IMG/VR virus record: IMGVR_UViG_3300036398_002399
Coordinates: 1-23,858 of that record
DNA: 23,858 nucleotides
DNA from: a virus
Strand: one strand, 5' to 3'
The translations under genes were made by a program, and so were the position numbers. The first letter of the stretch is position 1. The number at the start of each line of letters is the position of its first letter. Under the pieces are notes generated by a model that was given only the letters and a program-made list of their open reading frames with translations, did no database searches and was not told where the DNA came from. This document shows, in pieces, positions 3,791-22,572 of this stretch.

Positions 3791-3913
3791 CTAGTCTTTC
3801 GAGATTTTAAGGACAATTCCTAAAATAGTGAACATTATACAGCATATACCTATGAATACGAAAGGAAAAGCGAATAATATATCACTATATTCTGAGTATT
3901 TTACTACTACCAT
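3791..3913 (-). CDS. Micro membrane protein (40 aa) overlapping thyX
   Basis: The ATG (3911-3913) lies inside the last codons of thyX, with GGAGG 7 nt upstream, an ideal ribosome binding site encoded by the thyX 3' end. Residues about 12-35 form one hydrophobic helix, flanked by a short N-terminus and the basic tail KISKD. It overlaps thyX by 7 nt and is followed 2 nt later by another membrane protein. Confidence 0.65.
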   Translation of the reverse strand: MVVVKYSEYSDILFAFPFVFIGICCIMFTILGIVLKISKD

Positions 3914-4542
3914 CCCAAAGCCTCCGACGTTATTGGAAACTGCTGTTTAAAAATTTCTTTGGCTTCATTAGCGATTAACATATGTTCTTTCTGAGTGCCG
4001 TGGCTAGACCTAAGATCAATATAATGAACCCAAGATCTTATACTACCAGACATATAAAGCCTAGTAGGAGTAGCCAAAGGCAATATGAATCTAGCACATT
4101 CTTTAGCAACTCCATCCGCTAACATTCCATCATATATAGATTTGGCTTTTGCGAAATGCTCTCTAATTTTAGTATTCCACTTAGACTTAATGGTATCTTC
4201 TATATCATTTATGCTATTTTGTCTATTTTTTGTGTCTTGTCTCCTTAGTTCAAATAACGGTATGTTATCAGATAAAAGAGTAGTATCTGCATATCTTTGG
4301 GAAAATTCTTGATAGGTGAAACTTCTATGTCTTAAAATTTGTGCGGCAATACCCCTGCTGGTTTCTATTTGCAGGGTCATAAAAGCCTGTTCAAATATTG
4401 ACCAATGCTGATGATCTATACAGTACTTCAATAGTTTGCTGTAGTTTTCATTATCTTGATTAGAGGGGTTACTAACCCTAGCACAATAAGATATTAGTTT
4501 TTCTGCGTCTGGAGTAGCACTGATGAATTTTACTGAGTTCAT
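3907..4542 (-). CDS. thyX: FAD-dependent thymidylate synthase ThyX
   Basis: ThyX methylates dUMP to dTMP using methylene-tetrahydrofolate, FAD and NADPH. This 211-residue protein has the ThyX signature RHR-x7-S exactly (RHRSFTYQEFS at residues 71-81, followed by QRY). It also has the upstream HWSIFEQA helix and the C-terminal RSWVHYIDLR-type segment that contacts dUMP and folate in the family. The length is normal for phage and bacterial ThyX. The start overlaps the upstream gene as ATGA. With the deaminase at 364-822 it suggests this phage boosts dTMP supply. Confidence 0.95.
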   Translation of the reverse strand: MNSVKFISATPDAEKLISYCARVSNPSNQDNENYSKLLKYCIDHQHWSIFEQAFMTLQIETSRGIAAQILRHRSFTYQEFSQRYADTTLLSDNIPLFELRRQDTKNRQNSINDIEDTIKSKWNTKIREHFAKAKSIYDGMLADGVAKECARFILPLATPTRLYMSGSIRSWVHYIDLRSSHGTQKEHMLIANEAKEIFKQQFPITSEALGW

Positions 4543-17964: not shown

Positions 17965-18127
17965 TAAATTTCCTCAAAACTTTCCATAAGATTGCAGAAC
18001 ATATTACTATTCCTATGACTGATACTATTAGTCTGGTTGTGTCATCATGTATGAATGTTGGACATAGGGGTCTTTTAACTATTGTGAGAGTTTGACCAAA
18101 TAAATAGGTTATTGGTATTAATTCCAT
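17957..18127 (-). CDS. Small membrane protein (56 aa)
   Basis: The ATG (18125-18127) lies within the end of the 2OG oxygenase gene. Residues about 33-50 form a hydrophobic helix (LIVSVIGIVICSAILW), followed by a basic tail (KVLRKFNG). It overlaps both neighbours. The ribosome binding site is weak. Confidence 0.55.
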   Translation of the reverse strand: MELIPITYLFGQTLTIVKRPLCPTFIHDDTTRLIVSVIGIVICSAILWKVLRKFNG

Positions 18128-18699
18128 GATATACATTTTAGGGCCCTATTCTTATCAAAGGTCCAAAAACTAGCCAAGGTGTATCTGGTATTATTTTCTA
18201 TCTGAGTAACCCCGTGTCTATGATTACAATCTCCCAAATGAACGGCCAATGTTCCGGCCTTGGGTTTAATAGAAAAATTATGATTTGGGTAATATGTATG
18301 GCCGCCCCCATAATTATCATTCAAATATATTACACACCCAAAACTCCTATGACCATGAATAACATCTTGACCGGGAGTATCAGACATATTATCACAATGG
18401 GGATTTTGTGACATACCAGAATACCACCTAACCAAATCTATAGTATCTGGGTATGGAATATTTGTAGTATTATAATTAGCAACTATAGTGTCTTGAATTC
18501 TTAAACCAATATTTTTAACAGTATCAAATATATCGGGATCTTTTATCTCTGCTAAACCAATTACTCTATTATCCCAAAAACTATTAGGAATATGCCTCCA
18601 TTCGTTCATGGTGGTAACATATTCCATCAAAGATGATATCTCACTACTGGATAAAAAATTATCAAAAGTTTTAGCTAAAAACTGGTCATTCTTATCCAT
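18118..18699 (-). CDS. 2-oxoglutarate/Fe(II) oxygenase, prolyl-hydroxylase-like
   Basis: This 193-residue protein fits the double-stranded beta-helix oxygenase fold. The iron ligands are H101 and D103 (PHCDN) and H162 (HRHGV), and R172 (TRYTLASFW) is placed to bind 2-oxoglutarate. The run GGGHTYYP followed by KPKAGTLAVH is typical of the prolyl-4-hydroxylase/PKHD branch. Such phage enzymes hydroxylate proteins or possibly nucleic acids; the substrate is unknown. The ribosome binding site is weak. Its 3' end overlaps the next small membrane gene. Confidence 0.85.
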   Translation of the reverse strand: MDKNDQFLAKTFDNFLSSSEISSLMEYVTTMNEWRHIPNSFWDNRVIGLAEIKDPDIFDTVKNIGLRIQDTIVANYNTTNIPYPDTIDLVRWYSGMSQNPHCDNMSDTPGQDVIHGHRSFGCVIYLNDNYGGGHTYYPNHNFSIKPKAGTLAVHLGDCNHRHGVTQIENNTRYTLASFWTFDKNRALKCISWN

Positions 18700-19394: not shown

Positions 19395-19631
19395 TTAAAT
19401 TATAAAATATTCAGTATCTGGTTTCTTCCATTTTTGAATCTTCTTCAATCTAGTCATATTAGTAATCCTACCACGATTATCATCATAGGATGCTGAACAA
19501 AAGATAGAGTTACCACCATCATGTTTAAACGACCAATCGTAACTCTTTATAATTTGTTCGGGAGTAGTGCTATTATCATAAATCTCACCCTCTACCCTAA
19601 ACGATATGACCCTATTGAATAGTCTTGGCAT
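19395..19631 (-). CDS. Unknown protein (78 aa)
   Basis: Start chosen at ATG 19631 (MPRLFNRVISFRVEGEIYD), with AAGGGGG upstream; the open frame further 5' overlaps the previous gene. Two strands, a TPEQIIKSYDWSF helix, then a basic segment (TRLKKIQKWKK). Last gene before a terminator. Function unknown. Confidence 0.65.
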   Translation of the reverse strand: MPRLFNRVISFRVEGEIYDNSTTPEQIIKSYDWSFKHDGGNSIFCSASYDDNRGRITNMTRLKKIQKWKKPDTEYFII

Positions 19632-19863
19632 ATTCGGCCCCCTTTCCAATAACCTCTTCAGATAAATGATCTTCAAGGATTTCTGGACAATGCTTTTTAA
19701 TTTCTTCCTCTAGAGTATCATTTGGATAACTCATTTTTTCTTGAAAGAAATAGTTTCTAAAAGCATCTAGAACCTCTATGTCATCCATTCTAGAAATCAC
19801 ATAATCAGTATATCTCCTGACTATATAGGCTTTATTATCATTAGAAATTTCAATAAATCTCAT
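19612..19863 (-). CDS. Unknown protein, ILED paralogue family (83 aa)
   Basis: Pattern YTDYVISRMDDIEVLDAF then LEEEIKKHCPEILED (residues about 18-66) is shared with 22381-22572 and, more loosely, with 19860-20114. These look like paralogues of a helical family frequent in phages (Y-x-D-x-hydrophobic-MD-x-x-x-L). ATGA overlap with the previous gene, with GAGG upstream. Function unknown. Confidence 0.65.
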   Translation of the reverse strand: MRFIEISNDNKAYIVRRYTDYVISRMDDIEVLDAFRNYFFQEKMSYPNDTLEEEIKKHCPEILEDHLSEEVIGKGAEYAKTIQ

Positions 19864-20114
19864 GATAGCACCTCTTCTTCCTGTATTATTCTGCTGTATC
19901 TATATCCTTTACCAAATACATCAGATAGGCACTCATTACCCCTACTAACGATCTCATCATAAAGATCTTCATTTGAGTAAAGGTTTTTTTCGCTATGTAA
20001 ATAATCTCTTAATAGTTCTCTAATCTGAATAAAATCCAGATGAGCTATTATACTATCTACATACTTTCTTTGGATCTCTTCTCTATTATAGTCATGGACC
20101 AATTCATTTTGCAT
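19860..20114 (-). CDS. Unknown protein, ILED paralogue family (84 aa)
   Basis: Start chosen at ATG 20114 (MQNELVHDYNREEI), with GAGG 6 nt upstream. The core YVDSIIAHLDFIQIRELL then YDEIVSRGNECLSD matches the layout of 19612-19863, and both end in a short G-K-G-x-x-Y segment. The two adjacent genes look like a tandem duplication. First gene after the promoter at 20209-20236. Confidence 0.65.
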   Translation of the reverse strand: MQNELVHDYNREEIQRKYVDSIIAHLDFIQIRELLRDYLHSEKNLYSNEDLYDEIVSRGNECLSDVFGKGYRYSRIIQEEEVLS

Positions 20115-20208
20115 ATAACACCTCATGGATAAAAGTAAAAATACAATTGCCCATGATTCCAAAAGTCCGCCAATTTCTCAGATGACTAATGGCCCCGTTG
20201 ACTATGCC

Positions 20209-20236: not shown

Positions 20237-20340
20237 GCGGATTTATTATATGATTATCTTAAAGAAATCCCAATATTTGGCTGACTACCACCAATCGCAC
20301 GACTTTGAGATATTAGGTGATACAAATTATACCTATTAAA

Positions 20341-20413
20341 AGCAAGAGAAGGGAATCGAACCCTCAACATTCAGGTTGGAAACCTGACGCTCTGCCAATT
20401 GAGCTACTCTTGC
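20341..20413 (-). tRNA. tRNA-Gly(UCC)
   Basis: The minus strand folds as a full cloverleaf of 73 nt. The acceptor stem is GCAAGAG with CTCTTGC, the D arm GCTC/GAGC, the anticodon stem TCAGG/CCTGA with loop TTTCCAA (anticodon UCC, reading GGA), and the T arm GAGGG/CCCTT with loop TTCGATT. The discriminator is U, as in bacterial glycine tRNAs. No CCA is encoded. It lies between the secreted-protein gene and a motif-rich gap. Confidence 0.97.
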
Positions 20414-20423
20414 TTAGAGATTA

Positions 20424-20768
20424 TTATCTCCAACTTCTTACTCTATACCACATACCATTTCGACCTTGAGCACTAGCATCTCCTGTGAGACTCATTCTGC
20501 CACTAGGAGTACAGGTATTACAATTTGGACTATTGCCATACCCAACACCTTCAAACCCCCCAATAGTCCCCCACACATGACCAGTGATATTATTTGCTGC
20601 CATATGATTAGCCTCTGCTTGACAGCGTTCTTGATCACTTCCCATATTATTCATACTAGTATATGAGTATGACTTATTAGTTGTTGGAACATAATACCTT
20701 GGCTTAGCAGCCTGAGCAATCGTACTTGCACCCAAAAGAATCATAGTAACAAGAATCAAATTCTTCAT
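20424..20768 (-). CDS. Secreted Cys-containing protein, planctomycete-like (114 aa)
   Basis: Signal peptide MKNLILVTMILLGASTIAQA with a clear AQA cleavage site at residue 20. The mature part has CQAEANHMAANN, GHVWGTIGGFEGVG, NCNTCTPSG, LTGDASAQG and ends WYRVRSWR. I associate the EGVG, TGDA and WYRVRSW pattern with small secreted proteins of Planctomycetes (memory only, no search). A phage gene of this type may be a host acquisition acting at the envelope. AAGGAGG gives a perfect ribosome binding site, and a terminator separates it from the previous gene. Confidence 0.75.
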   Translation of the reverse strand: MKNLILVTMILLGASTIAQAAKPRYYVPTTNKSYSYTSMNNMGSDQERCQAEANHMAANNITGHVWGTIGGFEGVGYGNSPNCNTCTPSGRMSLTGDASAQGRNGMWYRVRSWR

Positions 20769-20796
20769 ATTTCCTCCTTGAAAAGATAATGATTAC

Positions 20797-20842
20797 AGAA
20801 AAGAACCCCTGAAGTATGCATTGCTAAGAGGCATCAGGGGTT
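20797..20842 (-). terminator. Intrinsic terminator
   Basis: On the minus strand AACCCCTGA (20834-20842) pairs with TCAGGGGTT (20804-20812), a 9-bp stem with a partly paired loop, and CTTTTC follows. It lies 20 nt after the stop of the gene at 20862. Confidence 0.85.
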
Positions 20843-20861
20843 AACTTTTCCTATTCGATAT

Positions 20862-21086
20862 TTATCGCACAACCGTTACGTTACGACTGCGGCAGACTCC
20901 ATTCGGACATGTCGCCACTACCCGGCGCGGCAGGCGCACAGTTTCGCGTACAACGGTCTTGCTAAAAGTAACGACCTTGCGGGGAGCAGCAACTAAACAG
21001 CCAGCAGGGCCGCACTCACCAGCAAAAGATACGCTACTAACAACTAGACCAGCAAGCATTACTAGGGCGATGATAATATTCTTCAT
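20862..21086 (-). CDS. Secreted basic Cys protein, planctomycete-like (74 aa)
   Basis: Signal peptide MKNIIIALVMLAGLVVSSVSFA with cleavage near SFA-G. The mature part has CGPAGC then many Val/Arg residues (VVRETVRLPRRVV) and CPNGVC, ending basic. Its G+C content is visibly higher than its neighbours. This CGP-x-C plus Val/Arg style is what I know from short planctomycete secreted proteins, so host origin is likely. GGAGAT precedes the ATG, and it has its own promoter and terminator. Confidence 0.75.
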   Translation of the reverse strand: MKNIIIALVMLAGLVVSSVSFAGECGPAGCLVAAPRKVVTFSKTVVRETVRLPRRVVATCPNGVCRSRNVTVVR

Positions 21087-22380: not shown

Positions 22381-22572
22381 TCAGTCTTCTAGAATATCAG
22401 GACAATAATCCTTAATCTCATTTTCCAAAAACTCATTATCCATAAGACTTTTACTCTCAACTAATTGTTCATAAGCAAAAGCATACAGGGTATCAAAATC
22501 CATATCATCAAGCAACCTAGAAGCATAGACCCTAATAATATCTTCTCTGGTTTTATCGGTCACCATTACCAT
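22381..22572 (-). CDS. Unknown protein, ILED paralogue family (63 aa)
   Basis: The pattern YASRLLDDMDFDTLYAFA then LENEIKDYCPDILED matches 19612-19863, including the C-P-[DE]-ILED end. This copy stops right after that motif. GGAGG precedes the ATG. It overlaps the upstream gene by 7 nt. Function unknown. Confidence 0.65.
   Translation of the reverse strand: MVMVTDKTREDIIRVYASRLLDDMDFDTLYAFAYEQLVESKSLMDNEFLENEIKDYCPDILED

Follow-up and report, generated by a model that had tools for sequence, protein, structure and literature searches.

The presence in a virus genome of two small adjacent genes, each apparently encoding an exported protein, raises the question of whether these are secreted host proteins that were acquired recently, as the initial annotation had proposed, or conserved components of the virus, and of what the locus as a whole might do. 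The window, meaning the whole stretch of DNA analysed, comprises the 23,858 bases of virus record IMGVR_UViG_3300036398_002399 (G000 in the record set). Both genes were confirmed, and these and all other features of the locus described below lie on the minus strand. P0002 (20862-21086) encodes a 74-residue protein comprising a signal peptide (approximately residues 1-22) and a 52-residue mature cationic peptide (+8), with two cysteine-pair motifs. The first of these, CGPAGC (C-x4-C; 20997-21014), was recognised from the sequence and by comparison with the family, in which the consensus is CxNGxC, and the second, CPNGVC (CxxGxC), is at 20892-20909. P0001 (20424-20768) encodes 114 residues, arranged as a signal peptide (approximately residues 1-20), a short variable linker and a conserved C-terminal domain. 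As judged by eye, and in agreement with the earlier claim of a signal peptide on each gene, both export signals begin with an n-region that contains lysine, continue with a hydrophobic segment and end in a cleavage site of the Ala type, predicted to fall between AQA and A in P0001 and between SFA and GEC in P0002.

The initial annotation had also credited each gene with a strong ribosome binding site and with a separate terminator or promoter. The first claim holds for P0001 (aaggaggaaat) and fails for P0002, the site of which is weaker (acggagatctt). As for the second, a promoter-like site, TTGACC-16-TAGTAT, is located 5' of P0002 (21144-21171), although the consensus scan by which it was found returns approximately 3.6 such sites each time the region is shuffled; a TTGACC element with a TATA-like -10 is present at the equivalent position in many relatives. 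The 93-base gap between the genes has as its sole structure one hairpin with a T-rich tail. No separate promoter for P0001 was found. Finally, a gene for tRNA-Gly(TCC) (20340-20414) begins 9 nt past the P0001 stop codon. Elsewhere in the window are genes for ThyX (3907-4542), UvdE (1790-2740) and a 2OG-Fe(II) oxygenase (18118-18699), a DUF932 gene truncated by the contig end (23362-23856), and several small, related-looking genes close together (19395-20162 and 22381-22572); in most group I relatives, members of one such small-gene cluster (cluster 3) are found again in the surroundings of the cassette.

With respect to origin, relatives of P0001 were found in approximately 37 IMG/VR contigs, several of them 200-244 kb in length, and are 61-100% identical apart from a few fragments and distant members. 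Members of the P0001 and P0002 families are adjacent in more than 25 contigs (up to 244 kb), and each of the 20 records tested contains a single copy of P0001. A P0002 relative is immediately 5' of P0001 in most group I phages, with order and strand constant, and in most group I contigs tRNA-Gly(TCC) follows 9-10 nt past the P0001 stop codon; at some loci of a second, distant group, different tRNAs occur within approximately 70 bases downstream. Comparison of the P0001 domain with ten relatives revealed protein identities of 81-89% and DNA identities of 71-83%, with dN of 0.10-0.18 against dS of 0.65-1.6 (where computable), which is the mark of purifying selection. Both genes thus far exceed chance open reading frames, each having dozens of relatives, in constant order and under purifying selection. 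Additionally, a group I intron was observed among the tRNA genes of one relative (L010, 2580-2766).

Every relative detected resides in a viral contig. When 84,980 genomes of bacteria and archaea were scanned twice, with patterns fitted to close relatives only, no cellular relative was returned, and the three planctomycete plasmids searched gave no match. Cultured phages and plasmids contain no relative of the P0001 domain, cultured phages gave no match to P0002, and scans against Pfam, NCBIfam and PHROG revealed no credible family for either protein. The claim that one gene is visibly richer in G+C was borne out, in that P0002 (52.4%, against 34.6% for the window) ranks top of 80 open reading frames. 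However, the P0002 family spans 0.35-0.52, compared with 0.33-0.42 for the loci of these phages, and high G+C in nearly all phage copies fits their Arg/Val/Gly content, with the window copy as the extreme. Since G+C richness is a family-wide phage trait, it is no mark of recent import.

These observations bear directly on the idea that the two genes are recently captured planctomycete secreted proteins, still performing their host function at the envelope. Proteins with similar motifs are present in planctomycete genomes, and capture would account for the export signals on both proteins and for the composition of P0002; one distant relative, moreover, occurs in two prophage-like contigs (L089 and L091), with an IMG number resembling that of a sequenced genome. 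Conversely, the families are conserved among phages in a fixed order with many divergent members, the G+C richness extends across the whole P0002 family, and no cellular relative was found by genome scans that reach only close relatives. Recent capture is accordingly considered improbable, and that part of the initial annotation was set aside, while its view that the phage carries exported proteins probably used at the cell envelope is supported. On sequence comparison, then, P0001 and P0002 are conserved phage families that appear to make up an accessory cassette shared by a lineage of very large lake phages.

As to the host of this lineage, phages predicted to infect freshwater planctomycetes, some of them large, have been described (PMC9040852), which keeps a planctomycete host conceivable. 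A cyanobacterial host was considered but not assigned: the window ThyX is closest to that of T4-like cyanophages (71% identical), but none of 17 related records encodes psbA/psbD-type proteins, and the terminase of a relative is only ∼24% like that of any cultured phage. In a separate observation, a terminase match (L455, G007:230243-231700) crosses one TAG codon, which could reflect a frame or intron problem or recoding of the stop.

The nature of P0001 was approached by modelling of its structure. The full-length model was poor (pLDDT 68) and was rejected in favour of a model of the domain, residues 41-114 (20427-20648), for which AlphaFold2 supplied with 69 phage sequences yielded one helix and three strands with a pLDDT of 93.6 and a pTM of 0.82. 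In Foldseek searches against solved structures the top four matches were all CAP/PR-1 proteins, with a best probability of 0.93 and weak E-values of 0.3-2.5. VIA comparisons gave Z scores of 7.0, 6.5, 6.3, 5.7 and 5.5, all to CAP structures, ahead of a first non-CAP match at 4.9 to an unrelated sensor domain, although a Z of 7 is below the level of 8 that the tool calls safe. The best structural matches are members of the CAP/SCP/PR-1 family such as GAPR-1 and plant PR-1 P14a, and the helix-strand-strand-strand core of the P0001 domain covers residues 32-134 of GAPR-1. His24 and Glu33 of the model, which correspond to His64 and Glu73 of P0001, show no variation across the 69 domains, in which they stand at similar spacing, and the aligned range (2-74 on 32-134 of GAPR-1) places them at approximately His54 and Glu65 of GAPR-1, which we take to be the first half of the CAP tetrad. 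Judged from that range, the first His-Glu pair of the tetrad appears to be kept.

In other respects the predicted domain departs from CAP proteins. At ∼74 residues it is too short to accommodate the segment and helix bearing the second Glu/His pair, and no such invariant residues exist among the 69 domains; additionally, Glu-Gly is present where CAP proteins have Glu-Asn. No family member matched Pfam CAP at E<1, and profile similarity is weak, in that hhalign comparison with eight true phage CAP domains brought the helix and the histidine into register with a probability of 3.6% and an E-value of 0.012. The model therefore points to a reduced fold that is CAP-like, as opposed to a proven member of the CAP family. 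The Bacillus phages Slash, Staley, Stahl and Stills similarly carry secreted proteins of LysM/SCP-PR1 type, and provide a precedent for a CAP-type protein in a phage; these differ from P0001 in having a full-length CAP domain, annotated together with LysM.

Iterated scans extended the P0001 domain to the second large phage group at ∼25-41% identity, giving a total of 95 unique domains, one per locus. By eye, complete members have an export signal, then a variable linker, then the C-terminal domain, and His64, Glu73, Gly74, Gly76, Cys86 and Gly105 are invariant in the 69 phage domains. A connection with P0002 emerged from the linkers. Mature P0002-family peptides are cationic (+7 to +9) and begin with GECxNGxC, and a C-x-x-G-x-C motif is present in the linker of 13 of 92 unique P0001-domain proteins, compared with 0.16 expected when each linker is shuffled; several of the 13 are closely related, so that they represent fewer than 13 independent events. 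At the group I loci L015 and L025 the motif-bearing partner is instead a separate small exported gene just 3' of P0001, which carries two cysteine-pair motifs, as does P0002 of the window, where one of the two is the variant CGPAGC with unchanged cysteine spacing. In other phages, too, a separate partner gene is found 5' or just 3' of P0001. Fusion of the motif to the P0001 domain is taken as evidence, short of proof, that P0001 and P0002 work together.

Several features of the surroundings in relatives were also recorded. A P0001-type gene is situated between SbcD-like and SbcC-like genes at L058 (8653-12354), as if inserted there as an accessory gene, and at L025 (6070-10616) rIIA, an rIIB-like gene, the P0001 relative and a P0002-like gene are consecutive. 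Most group I relatives have a 5' leader hairpin, GTCGC-ANGGAN-GCGAC, near the predicted P0002 transcript start (for example L002, 9616-9631; L014, 9599-9614; L018, 8146-8161). It occurs once per locus and is absent in the window; its stems covary (GTGCC/GGCAC, GCCGC/GCGGC), and the ANGGA loop resembles CsrA-type sites.

The hairpin between the two genes (20805-20840), the identity of which was overlooked in the initial annotation, matches the full abiF RNA model (RF03085, positions 1-37) with compensatory base pairs and is followed by the T-rich stretch; its score of 27.6 bits (E 8.6e-5 for the record) falls below the curated cut-off of 37 bits. Five related phages exceed this cut-off (37.4-44.6 bits), namely G006, G020 and G023 with homologous hairpins (37.4-38.3 bits), G016 with a copy elsewhere in its genome (38.3 bits), and the distant phage G026 (44.6 bits). 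In total, 12 of 32 phage records contain an abiF match, compared with none of 14 control genomes. Among eight variants of the hairpin all pairs are standard, several are altered on both sides and both stems covary, with compensatory changes at outer-stem pairs 4-7 and at the first inner pair, and with the loop and bulge largely kept. The loop reads CUCUYARCRAU in most variants, its CUCU start being present in all eight and its AU end in nearly all. The intergenic hairpin is most probably a structured RNA of the abiF family. It might be supposed that it is a mere intrinsic terminator, the likeness to abiF arising by convergence from a GC-rich stem and a chance loop; the T-rich tail and the site between two genes would suit such an element, and plain terminators occupy the equivalent place in other phages. 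However, those of sister phages receive no abiF score at all, and the conservation of loop and bulge while the stems covary, the passage of the curated cut-off by five relatives and the lack of matches in the 14 control genomes render this explanation quite unlikely.

In phages that carry it, the exact hairpin core of the window is present once per genome. In many relatives its place is taken by a plain terminator or is empty, which indicates that the protein pair can do without the abiF RNA, and in G016 it is located away from the cassette, near a tmRNA gene, indicating that the RNA can move independently of the pair. In two phages an abiF RNA is found within ∼1 kb of a tmRNA gene (L191, 434-1524; L186, 807-1530). 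Further afield, 28 of 50 viral records (G032-G081) contain an abiF RNA that passes the Rfam cut-off. No Abi_2 toxin gene was detected in the 32 phage records, nor in 35 abiF-matching records searched from a preselected viral set, although, since IMG/VR records are mostly incomplete, absence of a gene, Abi_2 included, is weak evidence for any one phage. The 50 records were preselected by loop sequence, such that 28/50 and 0/35 are not unbiased rates, and of the 15-nt pattern scans of viral contigs, which include chance matches, only the covariance-model results on these 50 records were used.

The AbiF type III toxin-antitoxin systems, which act in abortive infection and have RNA antitoxins (RCd22, AbiFr), offer the closest parallel. 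In these, as is predicted here, an intergenic RNA with the abiF fold, a conserved loop and a terminator is preceded by a promoter and followed by a gene that depends on read-through for its expression. Through its abiF motifs, RCd22 of Clostridioides difficile binds the AbiF toxin directly and neutralises it in trans, and mutations that break the stems abolish neutralisation (PMC12373285). The window differs in that the gene 3' of the RNA is P0001, with no Abi_2/HEPN toxin beside the RNA, and in that its hairpin holds one abiF motif compared with two in RCd22. A phage-borne abiF RNA is likewise reported in the lytic cyanophage S-CREM1, scoring 51.6 bits there, in a phage lineage and gene context that differ from those of the window; the passages of that report concerned with the RNA call it probably functional and propose no further function (PMC9964418). 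A region of phage sk1 reportedly shields a different phage against AbiF (Rince 2000); a search of sk1 with Rfam revealed no abiF RNA.

How these elements might operate together can be set out as follows. The locus is read as an accessory phage cassette whose products act at the host envelope, in the order promoter, P0002, abiF-like RNA/terminator, P0001 and tRNA-Gly, combined with an orphan abiF RNA that would silence AbiF-type toxins of the host; we assign this reading a probability of approximately one half. Transcripts from the P0002 promoter would mostly stop at the abiF hairpin, yielding abundant P0002 message and abiF RNA, while read-through would yield less P0001, the hairpin thus probably also serving as an attenuating terminator for P0001. 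The exported 52-residue cationic cysteine-pair peptide and the CAP-like mini-domain protein may then cooperate in the periplasm or on the cell surface. Rather than being parts of the virion, the pair would most likely protect the infection, by superinfection exclusion or by control of envelope integrity and lysis timing. The abiF RNA, for its part, would most likely bind and silence host AbiF-type toxins, as RCd22 does in trans (PMC12373285); for an RNA antitoxin carried by a phage without its toxin, silencing of a host toxin would be the simplest function. Counting against the cassette reading, neighbourhoods outside group I vary, with SbcC/D, rII, HNH and peptidase genes.

For the protein pair, exclusion of rival phages would be the first choice and control of lysis the second. 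A role in lysis, as an antiholin or by destabilising the membrane, in place of exclusion, would accord with P0002 being a small cationic exported peptide and with the position of the pair at L025, directly after rIIA and the rIIB-like gene. The rII link is confined to that single locus, however, and the neighbours of most copies are small accessory genes and tRNAs, with no holin or endolysin genes recognised alongside, leaving regulation of lysis a rather doubtful account of the pair. Even less probable is that the pair yields a released product, such as an antimicrobial or signalling peptide, with neighbouring cells as its target: an export signal, a short cationic mature peptide and cysteine pairs would all be expected of such a product, but pairing with a folded CAP-like protein and fusion of the cysteine pairs to it are better suited to a structural or binding role, and neither a processing gene nor an immunity gene was recognised next to the pair.

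More broadly, and more tentatively, orphan abiF RNAs may be widespread in large phages, where they would act as decoy antitoxins to the Cas13-related AbiF toxins, with the RNA here placed within the terminator of a new, two-part exported cassette that would shield the envelope. If so, a phage would possess an RNA-based counter-defence encoded in 36 nucleotides, free of any protein, and directed at toxins of the family regarded as ancestral to Cas13. The analysis also removes a tempting but unsupported reading of the two genes as recent host genes, and indicates that a contrast in G+C within a short Arg/Val-rich gene is no evidence of recent transfer. In its place are two exported phage protein families, absent from the libraries searched and linked by order and by fusion, one of which, P0001, looks like an unusually small CAP-type domain. 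Together with the RNA between them, the cassette may help the virus to disarm or shield its host cell.
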